A stretch of DNA of 64,000 nucleotides from NCBI GenBank assembly GCA_015099395.1, contig AP024096.1:5518001-5582000 (forward strand). The letters are read 5' to 3'. Shown in pieces: positions 1 through 46,521 of the stretch; position 1 is the stretch's first letter; every line of letters starts with the position of its first letter. A program made the translations under genes and the position numbers. Below the pieces are notes generated by a model. It did no database searches. It was not told where the DNA came from and saw nothing but the letters and a program-made list of their open reading frames with translations. This DNA is from Ktedonobacteria bacterium brp13 (GTDB lineage Bacteria > Chloroflexota > Ktedonobacteria > Ktedonobacterales > Ktedonobacteraceae).

Positions 1-543
1 CGTCCCTTGTTGATATTCCACTCCTGATATTTCCGGGTGCTCCATCTGCTGAAGATCGAACTTGACGAGTTCCATGCTCATCGCGGTGATTGGACAATAG
101 CGAGCAAGACGCAGGACCCATGTCAGAATGTTGTCGATCCTACTTTCTAACGAGGGTGGTAGCCAACCCTTCTTTCTGTTCTTCCGGTTGGACCAGCGTG
201 GCTTTCGGTAGCGTGTTTTTCGCTGTCTGCGTCCTCTGCGTACCCCCCGACGATCATCGAGGGCCGATTTGATCGCCTGTCCACGATGCGTGAGTTCTGC
301 GGCAAAAACGACTTCGCCTGTTGCATCATTGACGACCGCAATGCCAGTGGTCTTCGAGCCGGGATCAAGCTTGACCCGTAGCGGCTTGACTTCAGGCTGC
401 TCGACCACTCGCTTTAAGACGATGGTGAATGGATACATGCGGTACACGGATGCTTTGCCCTGTTTCAAGAGCAGACGTGCGCGGGCCGGATGCACCGGGT
501 TTAACGGCTTACAAAAACTGTCGATCACGAATACATTGCTCAA
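1..543 (-). CDS. iscB: IscB/IsrB-family RNA-guided nuclease, N-terminal part (runs off window start)
   Basis: IscB proteins are transposon-encoded, omega-RNA-guided nucleases related to the ancestor of Cas9. The frame stays open for 181 codons from a TTG at 543, which follows an AGGAGG ribosome site with 6-nt spacing, and continues past base 1. Visible parts in order: an N-terminal PLMP-like segment (PLNPVHPARARLLL, about residues 13-26), RuvC-I with the catalytic Asp in KLDPGSKTTG (about D60), an Arg-rich bridge helix with RRGVRRGRR (about 97-106), and RuvC-II with MELVKFD (about E158), followed by HPEISGVEYQQGT. These match the RRXRR/IscB family. The HNH domain, if any, lies outside the window, so IsrB (no HNH) cannot be excluded. 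The 5' flank carries the omega-RNA region. No tnpA is visible. Confidence 0.9.
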   Translation of the reverse strand, partial: MSNVFVIDSFCKPLNPVHPARARLLLKQGKASVYRMYPFTIVLKRVVEQPEVKPLRVKLDPGSKTTGIAVVNDATGEVVFAAELTHRGQAIKSALDDRRGVRRGRRQRKTRYRKPRWSNRKNRKKGWLPPSLESRIDNILTWVLRLARYCPITAMSMELVKFDLQQMEHPEISGVEYQQGT

Positions 544-544
544 G

Positions 545-947
545 TTGAGCCTCCTATTGCTAGGGTGTTGTTTGCCTCGTCAATCTTCGGGAGGGTTTAT
601 CGTCCAACACACTGGGTTAACCCTGTAGCCCTGTTTAATGTGGGACCGTAGAGCAGCGGGCTGGCATGCACCCGTTGGTACCTATTTCTTCCCGAAGGGA
701 GCACTATCACTAGTGCTAAGACTGGTCAGGTGTGGACTTACTTGCGCAAGCCCCCGGATTTATCCCTGATTCTTACCCACATTTTACAAAGGGAAAAGGA
801 AGACGACATCAGAAGGCGATTCATAAAGACGAGCTTATGAGGAACTCCTTGCAAACTCAAGCTTGGTAATCTCCATCTGAAGCGGCCTTCATTCTGCGAA
901 TGTTAAATGTGGGTAAAAGACAGGGATTTATCCGTGGGGTTCCTGAC
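545..947 (-). ncRNA. omega-RNA region and transposon left end upstream of iscB
   Basis: IscB omega-RNAs are encoded just upstream of iscB, with the guide at the 5' end copied from sequence outside the transposon end. On the minus strand this region starts GTCAGGAACCC at 947 and runs to the iscB ribosome site. It shares with 46239-46521 the terminus, ACCTGACCAGTC, TACCAA(stem)TGCATGCCAGC(stem)TGCTCTA, GGGTTAA(C/G)CCAGTG and GACGAGGCA. The stem flanking TGCATGCC changes in a compensatory way (GCGGG/CCCGT here, ATGCG/CGCAT there, on the plus strand). Other local hairpins are AGCACTA/TAGTGCT and CCC-TTC-GGG. The candidate 16-nt guide would come from 948-963. RNA boundaries are inferred. Confidence 0.8.
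756..933. repeat. Imperfect long inverted repeat inside the omega-RNA region
   Basis: Arms of about 29 bp (756-784 and 905-933) pair at roughly 23 positions, sharing TACCCACATTT and ATCCCTG blocks, around a 120-bp loop. At the matching place the second locus has only a short GACGGGC/GCCCGTC hairpin (46463-46469 with 46490-46496). The 5' hairpin of the RNA therefore appears greatly expanded here, possibly by insertion into its loop. Confidence 0.6.
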
Positions 948-1137
948 TCTTACTCTAGAGATACTATCAGTACTCCATCTCTCATATTATCAACGATTAT
1001 CATCAAATAATCCAATCGCAGAAAACCACCCTATAGGGTACATTTTTAGCAGCGATTTGCCGGAAAGCTGATATTTTGCTAAGATGAACAGGGCTTCTTT
1101 GGTAGTAACGTAGGGATAGGTTGAGGAAGGGGTTTGA

Positions 1138-3537
1138 TTGTCAAAACAGCAATTATCAATTATTACACGCAAGGCCCGTCTCTGGCCTGAACTTTCACAG
1201 GAGACTCTCCCGCTCCCCACTCCCCCCACTGCACAGCACACAGGCAGTCCTATTCTGCTCATTACTGTTTGCAGTAGTCTGGGAATTATGGGCCTCTATG
1301 CGTTTCTTTTTCGTAACTATAGCGGCGATCATCTTGTACTGACCGGGATACTTTTGATGAGTGGCGGGATGGCGGTCAGCGCTCTGGCAAACTTTTGCTT
1401 GCAATGGCTACCAGCACGCAAGCGCTATCGCCAACAGATACACACATACGAGCTCGAAATTGCGGCTCTACAGAGACATCTGCAAGAGCTGAGTCAACGC
1501 GAGCTCCAGGGCCAGCTCGAACTCGATCCACCATTGTCTGGCTCAGAGGAGAAACTAGCAACAACCAGCGCTCCCATTATACCGATTATACCAATCGTAC
1601 AACGCAGCTTTAATAATCAGGATGTACAACTCTGGTCACGACGTCCAGACGATCCTGACTTTCTGTCAGTACGTATCGGTATGGGTCAGCAGGCTCCTCA
1701 TTTTCAATTGCACAGTATACAGCCGAGTACGACATCGTCCCAAACACAACTACGTACACAGCAATATGAAAAATTGGCGGAGCTCTACACAACATATACG
1801 ACACTGGAGCTCCCACTCAAGATCGCTCTGGCGACGAGCGGGACGCTGGCACTACTGGGTGAGGGGACATATCTACAGAGCGCACGCCGACTCGCACTGA
1901 CGATGCTGACCTACATCGCCTATCATCATTCGCCAGCCGATGTGCGCATTATCATCCTCGCACCAGAGTCACAACGCAGCACCTGGGAAAGTGCAGCGCT
2001 CCTGCCACAGACGATCGCACTCGACCAGCAAGTCAACGAAGGAAGTACAATCGGCACGAGCAACACAAGAGTCTTAAGAGAAAACAGGCAGGCAAGCGAG
2101 CCACAACATATGGTCGCCATCGGAGACGAAGCGGTAGCACAGCAACTCTCTCTGATCTCGCGTGAAGTCAGTCATCGCTCACTCCAGTTGACAGAGAGCC
2201 CTGCTGCTACCAGTGCTACCAGTTCACACAGCGAGCACGCACCTCTACTCCCACATATCCTTATTTTTGTTGATCACTTCGAGGAACAGCAACAACTAGA
2301 GCCGACGATCCAGTTTATGCCCTATCCACTTGTTAAGGGCAAAACGACCCAAACGCTCAGACAGGCAAAGGCACAACAAGCGCTGACATCACTACTCTCA
2401 CCATCGTCAGCGCCCTCACTGCTCCAACGGGCAGAACTCGATCTGGCGTTGCATGCGGAGAGAGAATTAGGGCTCACAGTCATTGCAATCTGTCAGCAGA
2501 AAGAGCAACTCCCACCCTCAACAGCAGTCTTAATCGAAATCGAGGGTGGGACCGCTGGTAATACACTACCAGCAACTGCTACTATCCGCCATCTCCAACC
2601 GGATGCGCAACCGGCTCAGCATTGTGATCGCGTGGATACCATCGCACCGGATATTTTCCGTCACTGTGCAACACGCCTGCAGCCTCTTCGTGCAGCAAGC
2701 CCTCAACGCCTGGAACTGCCTACGCTGGTCGATATCTGCACGCTCTTTGAGCCGCCGATCGATCCTGCCAATTACGAACCACAGCACTACTGGCAGCGAG
2801 GCACACTACGGGATAGCGCCGGTGAACCGCTGCTGCGTATCCCTATCGGCATGAAGATCGGAGATGAGATACAGTACCTGGATCTGCTCAAAGATGGGCC
2901 GCATGGTCTGTTGATCGGTCAGACAGGTTCGGGCAAGAGCGAACTCCTACAAACAATTATCACAGGCCTGGCGGTCGCCTACCGGCCCGCTGAGATCAAC
3001 TTTTTACTGATCGATTATAAAGCCGGTCTGGCGCTAGAACCGTTTAGCCGCCTGCCGCATACGGTCGGCTTTCTCTCAAATATCTCGTCGGCGGCGCTTA
3101 TCCAGCGCTTTATCACGATGCTGCGCGCCGAAGCGCTCCGGCGTGAACTACGCCTGAAAGAGGGACAGCCGACACCACGACTGATCATTATCATCGACGA
3201 ATTCGCTGAGATGGTCAAACGCACAGAGAACATCCTGGAAGAGCTCTTTACGATTACCCGCATCGGTCGCGAGATGGGCATGCACCTCCTGCTGACCGCG
3301 CAACGACCGGAAGGGATCATCGGCAACAAAGTTCGTGACTATGTTCAGTACCGGCTCTGCCTGCGCTGTAGCTCGCCAGAGGATAGCCGTGAAGTACTCA
3401 GACGGGTGGAAGCCGCATACCTACCAGCGAACGTACCGGGTAGGGCTTACCTGCTCCATGGCGACAATCAGCTCGACCTCTTCCAGGCCGCACGGGTTAC
3501 CGTACCAATTGTAGCGACGACGCGGGAAGGCATATAA
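1138..3537 (+). CDS. eccC: FtsK/SpoIIIE-type ATPase of a type VII-like secretion system (EccC/EssC, domain 1 protein)
   Basis: EccC/EssC is the membrane-anchored motor ATPase of type VII secretion. This 799-residue protein starts at a TTG preceded by AGGAAGG. It has two transmembrane segments (about residues 38-60 and 68-92), then a cytoplasmic region with the EccC-like stretch LPLKIALATSGTLALLGEG and a HSPADVRIIIL segment. One complete ATPase domain follows, with Walker A GQTGSGKSE (about 594-602) and Walker B LIIIIDEFAEM (about 682-692). The block LLKDGPHGLLIGQTGSGKSE is typical of EccC domain 1. There is no N-terminal FHA domain. It lies 7 bp before a second EccC-like gene, so together they resemble a split EccCa/EccCb. 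Other type VII core genes are not in the window. A generic FtsK-like translocase is the alternative. Confidence 0.85.
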   Translation: MSKQQLSIITRKARLWPELSQETLPLPTPPTAQHTGSPILLITVCSSLGIMGLYAFLFRNYSGDHLVLTGILLMSGGMAVSALANFCLQWLPARKRYRQQIHTYELEIAALQRHLQELSQRELQGQLELDPPLSGSEEKLATTSAPIIPIIPIVQRSFNNQDVQLWSRRPDDPDFLSVRIGMGQQAPHFQLHSIQPSTTSSQTQLRTQQYEKLAELYTTYTTLELPLKIALATSGTLALLGEGTYLQSARRLALTMLTYIAYHHSPADVRIIILAPESQRSTWESAALLPQTIALDQQVNEGSTIGTSNTRVLRENRQASEPQHMVAIGDEAVAQQLSLISREVSHRSLQLTESPAATSATSSHSEHAPLLPHILIFVDHFEEQQQLEPTIQFMPYPLVKGKTTQTLRQAKAQQALTSLLSPSSAPSLLQRAELDLALHAERELGLTVIAICQQKEQLPPSTAVLIEIEGGTAGNTLPATATIRHLQPDAQPAQHCDRVDTIAPDIFRHCATRLQPLRAASPQRLELPTLVDICTLFEPPIDPANYEPQHYWQRGTLRDSAGEPLLRIPIGMKIGDEIQYLDLLKDGPHGLLIGQTGSGKSELLQTIITGLAVAYRPAEINFLLIDYKAGLALEPFSRLPHTVGFLSNISSAALIQRFITMLRAEALRRELRLKEGQPTPRLIIIIDEFAEMVKRTENILEELFTITRIGREMGMHLLLTAQRPEGIIGNKVRDYVQYRLCLRCSSPEDSREVLRRVEAAYLPANVPGRAYLLHGDNQLDLFQAARVTVPIVATTREGI

Positions 3538-3544
3538 GAAAACA

Positions 3545-5287
3545 ATGCAGACGCTCAACATACTCACAGCTCATAACACAGAAGAACTGCACGCAGAGAT
3601 GCAGCCAGATGAGGAAGCAGAAAGCCAGCCAGAAACAGAACAAGCATCCGAGTTGGCTGTAATGCAAGAGACAGCGCCAGCAACAGCGCCACAAGAACCA
3701 CAAGAACCACAAGAACCGCAACGCGAATATAAGCGGGGGAACCTGGCTGGAACGCGACTAAGCTTGCCGGTGATCATGCATGAGACTCCACGCCGCAGTA
3801 CTCCCTGGCAGTTTAGACAGACAACGCAGACGACCAGAGTAGAGATTGCCAGTATCACAACCATCGAGAAAAAACACCATACAGCGACATTTTATACAGC
3901 AACGACAATAGTTGAAGAACTTATGCCGGTCAACGACTCTTTTTACACCATGGATAGCCTGGATGCTATCCACACACCAGATCCTACTGGTCTTATCGAT
4001 CCGATGGAAGCTATGCATCCTGTAGATACTGTAGATACTGTAGATACTGTAGATACTGTAGACCCTGTAGATCCTATACATCCTATGGAAGTCAGCGATC
4101 CTATAAGTACTATAAATACAATGGATGCCATGGATACCATAGACACCATACATACTCTGGAGACGCTCCAACTCCCAATCCTGACGAAGCAGAGCAAAGT
4201 TTCAGAGCTGATCATAGAGCGTATCCGACATGAGTACTCTCTGGCCAGAGCACAGCGCGAAGGGATTTGTTATTGGCCCGCACCATTGCCGACACCCGAC
4301 TATCAGCGTAGTCCCGCTCCCTTGATCCTATTTCGATCCACAGCGACCACGCCAACAGCTGCGAACACAGCACCCACAGCACATAACACAGAGACAGGCA
4401 AGCAGACACCCCTGGTACCACTCACGCAGCATGAAGTGCTTGAGTGGAGCCGTAAGTCACCAGCGCGTCCGGCATTGCAATTCCCACTGGGTCTCATCGA
4501 TAAACCAGAACAGCAAAAGCAGGAGACGCTCCTGATAGATCTTCAAGGTATGACAGGAGCGCTCTCAGGTGGTCCACTCTTACTCGTCGGCGCACAACAT
4601 AGTGGCAAGGCGACAGCGCTACAAAGCATGTTGCTCTGGCTCACATCGCGCTACAACGCCAGACAGCTCAGGTGTATCATCATTGATCCTACCCATGACC
4701 TGGACCTCTTCCAGACGCTCCCTCATCTCTGTGACGATGGACAGCAGAGTCTGTGGACCGATGGCAGCAACGACGAAGAACTCTATAAGGTCATCGAACG
4801 TGCGACAGCACTCCAGACCCAAAGAAGAGAGCGCTATAAAGGGCTACGCTGGAACGCAGATACACTGGCACAGCTCTGGCAAGCCGGGGAAGAGGTACCG
4901 CTCCTGCTACTCGTCGTCAGTCAACTTCAGCGCTTCAGTGAACATACACAGGCACAGCAAGCGATCAAGCGACTTTTCTTCACATTCAACGATGCACGTG
5001 AACTAGGAATCTACAGTGTACTGAGCTCATCAGAGGTAGGGCTGCGCCATATCTCAGCGGACATTTTAAGCAAGATCAGTACACGCCTGAGCCTCTTCTT
5101 ACATGAACAGCAACGCGCCGAGTTCTTTGGTCGCCTCCATCCAATGGAACCAATCCCCGGACGCGGTCTGCTCCAGACACCCGACCAGCAGATCAACCAC
5201 GTACAGCTCGCACTACCAGTACCGGGCAGCAGCGAGAGCGAACGCTACGAGAATCTCAAGCAAGCAATAGCCAATATAAAAAATTGA
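3545..5287 (+). CDS. EccCb-like protein with degenerate second ATPase domain and long disordered N-terminus
   Basis: The C-terminal half matches the second ATPase domain of EccC: PLGLIDKPEQQKQETLLIDL, then a degenerate P-loop GAQHSGKAT (about residues 350-358), IIIDPTHDLDLFQTLPHL, and a weak Walker B LLLLVVSQLQ without the usual acidic pair. It is therefore probably a non-hydrolysing or regulatory domain, as later EccC domains often are. A third domain is absent. The first 300 residues are low complexity: repeated QEP near residue 58 and a D/T/I/M-rich run at about 157-215 encoded by a 9-bp minisatellite. It is co-directional and 7 bp downstream of the domain-1 gene, so translational coupling is likely. 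The function as substrate-binding partner is inferred from known EccC biology. Confidence 0.75.
   Translation: MQTLNILTAHNTEELHAEMQPDEEAESQPETEQASELAVMQETAPATAPQEPQEPQEPQREYKRGNLAGTRLSLPVIMHETPRRSTPWQFRQTTQTTRVEIASITTIEKKHHTATFYTATTIVEELMPVNDSFYTMDSLDAIHTPDPTGLIDPMEAMHPVDTVDTVDTVDTVDPVDPIHPMEVSDPISTINTMDAMDTIDTIHTLETLQLPILTKQSKVSELIIERIRHEYSLARAQREGICYWPAPLPTPDYQRSPAPLILFRSTATTPTAANTAPTAHNTETGKQTPLVPLTQHEVLEWSRKSPARPALQFPLGLIDKPEQQKQETLLIDLQGMTGALSGGPLLLVGAQHSGKATALQSMLLWLTSRYNARQLRCIIIDPTHDLDLFQTLPHLCDDGQQSLWTDGSNDEELYKVIERATALQTQRRERYKGLRWNADTLAQLWQAGEEVPLLLLVVSQLQRFSEHTQAQQAIKRLFFTFNDARELGIYSVLSSSEVGLRHISADILSKISTRLSLFLHEQQRAEFFGRLHPMEPIPGRGLLQTPDQQINHVQLALPVPGSSESERYENLKQAIANIKN
4021..4074 (+). 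repeat. 9-bp coding minisatellite, six units
   Basis: The unit TGTAGATAC is repeated four times exactly and twice with changes, encoding (VDT)n/VDP. The 9-bp unit keeps frame, so copy-number changes would only alter the length of the disordered linker. A looser continuation with TATAxAT-type codons runs on to about 4160. Confidence 0.9.
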
Positions 5288-41335: not shown

Positions 41336-41700
41336 CAAAAAAGCCCTCATCCTCACATAAGGAGGACGAGGGCAGATTATGCCTGTCGTGGTACCACCAC
41401 CATTTATCCCTTCTTGACAAAGGGACCTCAAGCAGTCGAACACATGGTGTGCCTGATCATTTATTGTGCACGGCACAGCACATGCTAACTGACGCACCGA
41501 TAACGGAGTGCCTTCCGAAAACCACTTACTTATACTATCAATGTTATAGATGCCATTGATAGCAGTTCACTGGCTAGCTCGTAGGGGTCATTGACCAGGG
41601 CGTACCGCAATGCTCTCAGCGTTACATTGCTCTCTGTTGGCGCGCAGATCCTGCCAACCTATCCTACTCAAAGCAGTTCAATATATATCTCTTATTACTA
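41336..41700 (-). promoter_or_regulatory. T-box riboswitch leader of the AspRS gene
   Basis: T-boxes sense uncharged tRNA and control transcription. On the minus strand: stem I with the GAGTAGG element and the apical CAACAGAGAGC...GCTGAGAGC; then the T-box proper GGTGGTGGTACCACGACA (41384-41401, core TGGTACCACG); then a terminator GCCCTC.TCCTC/GAGGA.GAGGGC (41343-41373) ending in T6. A GAAC at 41565-41568 is a possible specifier region (AAC = Asn), but I cannot fix the specifier. The rest of the gap (41701-41788) shows nothing. Confidence 0.85.
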
Positions 41701-46216: not shown

Positions 46217-46238
46217 TGGCACCCTTTTCCGCACAAAG

Positions 46239-46521
46239 TAATGTGTGCCTCGTCGATGATAGCGGTCTGCACGTCTCCTGAGCACTGGCTTAACCCTCGT
46301 AGACCTGGTTAACTCAGAAGTTATAGAGCAATGCGCTGGCATGCACGCATTGGTACGTTCTTGAACATTGCCGCTATCGTAGCCCGATAACCGTTTCCCG
46401 CCCCAAGGGGCATGCAAGGAACAGTCCTGGCTGGGACTGGTCAGGTAAGCTCGCAGAGAAGACGGGCAGAAACCACCCCATCTCTACAAGCCCGTCCCGT
46501 TTAGGGGACAGGGTTCCTGAC
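46239..46521 (-). ncRNA. Stand-alone omega-RNA without iscB, 3' of a kinase gene
   Basis: Shares with the iscB-linked region (545-947) the terminus GTCAGGAACCC (46511-46521), ACCTGACCAGTC, the TGCATGCCAGC core with a compensatory stem, GGGTTAA(G)CCAGTG, and GACGAGGCA. Internal hairpins GACGGGC/GCCCGTC and GCCCC-TT-GGGGC replace different hairpins at the first locus. No iscB reading frame follows at lower coordinates; recX ends there. The 5' end lies 24 bp past the kinase stop with no terminator between, so it could be processed from kinase mRNA. The candidate guide is 46522-46537. Confidence 0.75.

Follow-up and report, generated by a model that had tools for sequence, protein, structure and literature searches.

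An IscB omega-RNA gene carrying an IS4-family-type insertion, and group II introns in sister omega-RNA genes, in Ktedonobacteria bacterium brp13

The IscB locus and its omega-RNA

The window, i.e. the whole stretch of 64,000 nucleotides analysed here, corresponds to positions G000:C1:5518001-5582000 and is part of a single 8.88-Mb contig. Its first positions (1..543, minus strand) encode residues 1-181 of an IscB protein, comprising RuvC-I, the bridge helix and the RuvC-II side, with a match to the Pfam domain RRXRR (E=1e-72). The gene extends beyond the window, and the whole reading frame of 424 amino acids is found at G000:C1:5517269-5518543 on the minus strand (L009:3269-4543). The intact IscB N-terminus claimed in the first-pass annotation therefore belongs to a complete ORF. 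That annotation had also proposed extending the frame in search of the HNH domain, and had regarded a missing RuvC-III motif as evidence against its assignment. The full-length protein contains both the HNH domain (PF01844) and the motif PKTHWCDA, which matches RuvC-III in an alignment with a solved IscB. As expected for an IscB, its RuvC domain is divided by the bridge helix and HNH, and RuvC-III is included. A ribosome-binding site AGGAGG can be read from the sequence at 550..555 (minus strand), 5' of the TTG start codon at 543. On the plus strand, outside the IscB element, the gene at 1138..3537 encodes an eccC-like ATPase of the FtsK/SpoIIIE type (PF01580), with which the eccC neighbour named earlier is compatible; its start at 1138 is 175 bp from position 963.

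The covariance model HEARO (RF02033), suggested as a check on the omega-RNA, matches positions 776-565 of the minus strand with 108 bits (cut-off 83; E=1e-22). This is the sole HEARO match found at the locus, and the RNA is located 5' of IscB on the same strand. The scaffold is present in two parts on the minus strand. The 3' part (545..765) is defined by RF02033 and by the alignment to an intact copy of the element, L011, and the 5' part (924..947, GTCAGGAACCCCACGGATAAATCC) is identical to the 5' end of this intact copy at 24 of 24 positions. Position 947 is the end of the element. In each of the nine IscB loci compared, the omega-RNA starts with GTCAGG and the flanks differ from one locus to another, and 10 nearly identical copies devoid of IscB likewise begin with GTCAGG and have divergent flanks upstream. 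The terminus GTCAGGAACCC reported at 947 and the placement of the guide beyond it are both upheld by this comparison, since GTCAGG opens every omega-RNA compared and the flanking sequences diverge exactly upstream of it. The 5' terminus of the scaffold is also the border of the element, and the guide is taken from the adjoining DNA; the predicted guide segment is located at 948..963 (minus strand), its length being the estimate of the first-pass annotation. The alignments indicate that the true end of the scaffold is 947 rather than the 776 given by Rfam, the offset being due to an inserted element of 158 bp and a 10-bp duplication. Thus, the former description of 545-947 as an omega-RNA region holds for its HEARO identity but fails for its continuity, because an IS-derived element splits the scaffold.

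The brp13 genome contains 35 HEARO matches against 11 IscB genes. Matches were detected in 23 of 29 Ktedonobacteraceae genomes, with at least 55 in one relative. IscB systems with many omega-RNA loci are reportedly known from Ktedonobacter, and the kinship with this expansion that had been proposed for the present locus agrees with these counts. A second omega-RNA copy, without IscB, is found in the window itself (46238..46521, minus strand). It has the GTCAGG end and its own flank, the guide being expected just above 46521, and it is one of at least 10 nearly identical IscB-less copies in the genome. Matches to the Y1 transposase TnpA number only three in the genome, including a partial one. 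Elsewhere in the window, positions 41359-41680 (minus strand) give a T-box-like leader match of 57 bits, which is under the Rfam cut-off of 93.

The 158-bp insertion and the targets of its IS group

The comparison of empty and occupied copies defines an element of 158 bp at 766..923, non-autonomous and MITE-like, with the terminal inverted repeats CTGATTCTTACCCACATTTTAC and CTGTCTTTTACCCACATTTAAC, flanked by two copies of the target-site duplication GGATTTATCC (756..765 and 924..933). On the minus strand, GGATAAATCC is read at both 924-933 and 756-765 (10/10 duplication), and 158 bp separate the two copies. Within the inverted repeats, the element starts with CTG and ends with CAG. Two further close copies of the IscB element are present in the genome (L010 and L011). 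L011 (3645498) is empty: it reads GTCAGGAACCCCACGGATAAATCCGGGGGCTTG and its omega-RNA is uninterrupted. This copy is 99.2% identical to that of the window and lacks the 158 bp and one set of the ten duplicated bases, so that the stretch to the equivalent of position 545 measures 235 nt, versus 403 nt in the window. L010 (2694 kb) carries a complete IS of 1,444 bp between exactly the same ten duplicated bases, with terminal repeats identical at 22 of 22 positions; the right end of the 158-bp element is identical to the corresponding IS terminus and its left end is similar. A third omega-RNA (L016, 6565 kb) contains an element of 137 bp at the same base, with the same ten bases duplicated.

The first-pass annotation had implicitly treated 766-923 as native, that is, as a long natural hairpin within one continuous omega-RNA. 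A single, strongly structured fold is indeed obtained for the stretch 545-947 (z=-6.6). However, a 99.2% identical copy exists without the 158 bp and without the second set of ten bases, a full transposon occupies the same base in another copy, and the interior sequence of 766-923 is absent from all other HEARO copies in the genome. A native hairpin is therefore extremely improbable, and the anatomy of the locus as an omega-RNA gene with an insertion is hardly in doubt.

The IS of L010 encodes a DDE transposase of 466 amino acids with the domains Tnp_DNA_bind (PF14706) and DDE_Tnp_1 (PF01609), both above cut-off; the Tn5 dimerisation domain PF02281 reaches 23.3 bits in the same protein, under its cut-off of 26.7. 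By its domains, this IS is assigned to the IS4 family and is IS50-like. L010 and L011 show 2 differences in the 1,557 positions shared by the copies, whereas the window copy differs from each of them at 13. The interiors of the inserts have nothing in common. Independent insertions at one base are the simplest account of these sequences, because the empty L011 is closest to the occupied L010 and the insert interiors are unrelated. At another site (L021, G000:C1:2717292-2717338), a near-perfect palindrome of 47 bp has similar terminal repeats without a target duplication, with a HEARO-like 5' end (GTCAGGTACCCC...) on one side and a TnpB-like end (GGCTCAAGCCAGGGG) on the other; it is possibly a recombinant of two hit sites.

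The insertion point lies in the apical loop or distal part of the first hairpin, adjacent to the guide. The counterpart of this hairpin in IscB structures is the guide-adaptor hairpin (PMC9640706), the top of which is dispensable in OrufIscB, where a large truncation is tolerated (PMC13180657). The 403-nt and 235-nt forms are predicted to fold with a common scaffold, 70 of 73 pairs being retained, and the pairing of the first six bases is predicted to stay at 0.99-1.0. We considered whether the fold is preserved because the insert is palindromic, and this is unsupported: the scaffold is kept equally well with 56 of 100 shuffled inserts. For the same reason, the position of the insert outweighs its palindrome, and an intact fold is poor evidence that selection has acted.

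On these models, the omega-RNA of the window has somewhat better than an even chance of still being functional. Its death by insertion is nearly as serious a contender, though with the odds slightly against it; the RNA would then be a decaying pseudo-omega-RNA, and IscB, if used, would be served in trans by other omega-RNAs. Such service is consistent with the excess of HEARO matches over IscB genes in the genome (35 and 11) and with L010, where the IscB ORF is intact despite a full IS at the same base of the omega-RNA, an RNA that is probably broken in cis. The nearly unchanged scaffold pairing (70/73) and the large truncation withstood by the hairpin of OrufIscB (PMC13180657) argue on the contrary for an omega-RNA that survives its insertion.

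The target choice of the IS group was surveyed from 34 copies in Ktedonobacteraceae whose ends and target duplication could be defined; for the most distant copies, the search for the ends presupposed a duplication. Among the 35-nt empty-site cores, 74% fold at -10 kcal/mol or below, compared with 12% of positions drawn at random from the flanks, and 8 or more of 11 symmetric pairs are present in 41%, compared with 1.9% of flank controls; copies within one genome are partly dependent samples for these percentages. A typical empty site is a hairpin with CCCC and GGGG arms, so that most copies are located in palindromes, with the exception of the poor hairpins of L022, L023, L223 and L226. Several sites adjoin OMEGA-type genes: TnpB genes (L203, L210 and L227), fragments of HTH_OrfB_IS605 (L018 and L019), IscB with HEARO (L224 and L228), and TnpB-like matches under the curated cut-off (L204 and L230). 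This IS group probably favours hairpin targets.

Palindrome targeting by ISs is already known. All copies of ISRm22, a member of the IS4 family, were reported in 2006 to be in REP palindromes, and the targets of Tn5 are reported to have a palindromic structure (PMC1525189). The repeated hits could accordingly reflect a weak Tn5-like preference for palindromic symmetry in the ten duplicated bases, combined with the abundance of OMEGA elements, rather than the recognition of a longer hairpin. The Tn5 precedent (PMC1525189) is one argument in this sense, and the duplications are themselves palindrome-like (GGATTTATCC, GGCTCAAGCC and GCCTAAAGGC). We consider this unlikely: at most sites the symmetry continues past the duplication into the C4/G4 arms, and one base was hit in three omega-RNAs when all HEARO copies make up only about 0.1% of the genome. 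In the literature searched, we found no description of an IS targeting omega-RNAs or OMEGA-end hairpins.

The best reading of the locus is as follows. A non-autonomous member of the IS4 family (Tn5/IS50-like) invaded the omega-RNA gene of an IscB OMEGA element. The transposase would pick the palindrome, as a cruciform or an extruded hairpin, as its signal, and the end hairpins of OMEGA elements would serve as landing pads for the IS. The transcript would probably still fold and load on IscB as a longer omega-RNA, because the insert sits distally in the guide-adaptor hairpin. The locus is a nested mobile element. We give a probability of about 85% to the joint reading that associates a complete IscB and an omega-RNA start at 947, a 158-bp insert with its duplication, the recurrence at the same base and the hairpin bias of the IS group.

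Group II introns in sister omega-RNA genes

Three sister IscB loci contain a group II intron in their omega-RNA: L015:2280-4695 on the plus strand (2,416 nt), L016 at 2750-5165 on the reverse complement (2,416 nt) and L017 at 2434-4848 on the reverse complement (2,415 nt). The insertion site is ATT^AAACA in all three, and the omega-RNA of L016 contains both the intron and the short IS-type element. The three introns display Rfam matches to D1-D4 (RF02012, 91-93 bits) and to the D5-D6 region (RF00029, 65.8 bits), which includes domain V, and each has an open reverse transcriptase frame of 620 amino acids. A candidate EBS1, AAUCGUU (intron positions 315-321, in an apical loop), forms 6 of 7 pairs with the end of the 5' exon as IBS1. 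The excision of the intron in silico rejoins the omega-RNA exactly as in the intact ones; the predicted joined exon of L015 is CGGTCACCGATT followed by AAACAGGG. In the joined RNA, a stem forms across the junction, and its bases on both sides differ from those of L011; this covariation may be older than the intron.

From these features, the intron should splice out and restore the omega-RNA. Alternatively, the introns of L015, L016 and L017 stay unspliced and simply inactivate their omega-RNAs, which is conceivable but the less probable course. The IscB genes of L016 and L017, also broken by a second intron, fit such inactivation; the D1-D4 and D5-D6 matches and the open reverse transcriptase kept in all three copies, the pairing of EBS1 with the 5' exon end and the exact restoration of the omega-RNA by exon joining do not. 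Splicing of the three introns, separate from the IS insertions, thus remains the preferred reading.

The genome contains three full copies of this intron, all within omega-RNAs. L015 and L016 have the same intron sequence throughout its 2,416 nt, whereas their downstream regions are 81% and their 5' exons 90% identical. Such identity between introns next to IscB regions of only 81% identity points to a recent movement between omega-RNAs by retrohoming. The core TT^AAACA is kept in the unoccupied omega-RNAs inspected across Ktedonobacteraceae. From intron position 452 onwards, IscB included, L016 and L017 have the same sequence, but they differ upstream, which suggests a recombination within the intron. 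The second intron is different; three loci (L240 from about 487; L241 from about 1110 and L242 from about 1293, both on reverse complements) have it in the IscB frame, which it splits between HNH and RuvC-III, following ...NATRW. It carries a reverse transcriptase ORF, and no Rfam D5 match was reported within it in these loci.

Relatives of the omega-RNA intron were seen by eye in TnpB reading frames of two other genomes (L148 and L149). In L150, L151, L155, L157, L158 and L159, intron relatives are apparently located next to domain V of other group II introns. The reverse transcriptase has relatives at 80 loci in named genomes, with at most 62% identity; no IscB or omega-RNA was found beside them with tblastn and nhmmer on all 80 and Rfam on 13. 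A strict pattern of the omega-RNA/intron junction recovered the three copies of brp13 and 8 others from 400 Chloroflexota genomes; 7 of these other loci were read and gave the impression of fortuitous hits in unrelated DNA. We found no report of an intron inside an omega-RNA in the literature searched.

Other mobile DNA has thus invaded the guide-RNA genes of this genome repeatedly. Only tentatively, and with less than even confidence, do we propose that the intron homes to ATT^AAACA and splices to leave a working guide RNA, and that hairpin-seeking transposons lengthen the guide-adaptor hairpin without destroying the RNA.

Relation to known elements and significance

The locus resembles the known IscB/HEARO (ISC, OMEGA) elements, including those of the Ktedonobacter expansion, by its RuvC-HNH protein, its HEARO directly upstream on the same strand, its guide beyond the GTCAGG end and the many omega-RNA copies without IscB. 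Unlike them, its omega-RNA has a foreign element of 158 bp in the guide-adaptor hairpin, and the omega-RNAs of sister loci contain a full IS or a group II intron. With ISRm22 (PMC1525189), the IS group shares an IS4-family DDE transposase, insertion within repeated palindromes and short duplications; the palindromes here differ from REP elements in that they include the end hairpins of TnpB/IscB elements, the guide-adaptor hairpin of the omega-RNA among them. Like MITEs derived from the IS4 family, the inserts are short and noncoding, with the terminal repeats of a resident IS and a target duplication, but their interior is not that of a deleted resident IS and differs in each short element. 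The introns, finally, are similar to mobile group II introns in their size of about 2.4 kb, D1-D4 and D5-D6 regions, reverse transcriptase ORF, EBS1/IBS1 pairing and homing to a conserved site, whereas the host exon of those in L015, L016 and L017 is a guide RNA; their relatives are found in TnpB genes or, apparently, within other introns.

Omega-RNAs are targets of engineering for genome editing, and the natural inserts of 158 bp and 137 bp in the guide-adaptor hairpin mark a spot where large sequences might be tolerated. An intron in a guide RNA would mean a control at the RNA level on a relative of Cas9, and splicing, if it takes place, could gate the activity of IscB. The recurrent landing of one IS group in the hairpins of OMEGA elements connects two kinds of transposons, and it may shed light on how omega-RNAs degenerate or come to exist without their nuclease gene.
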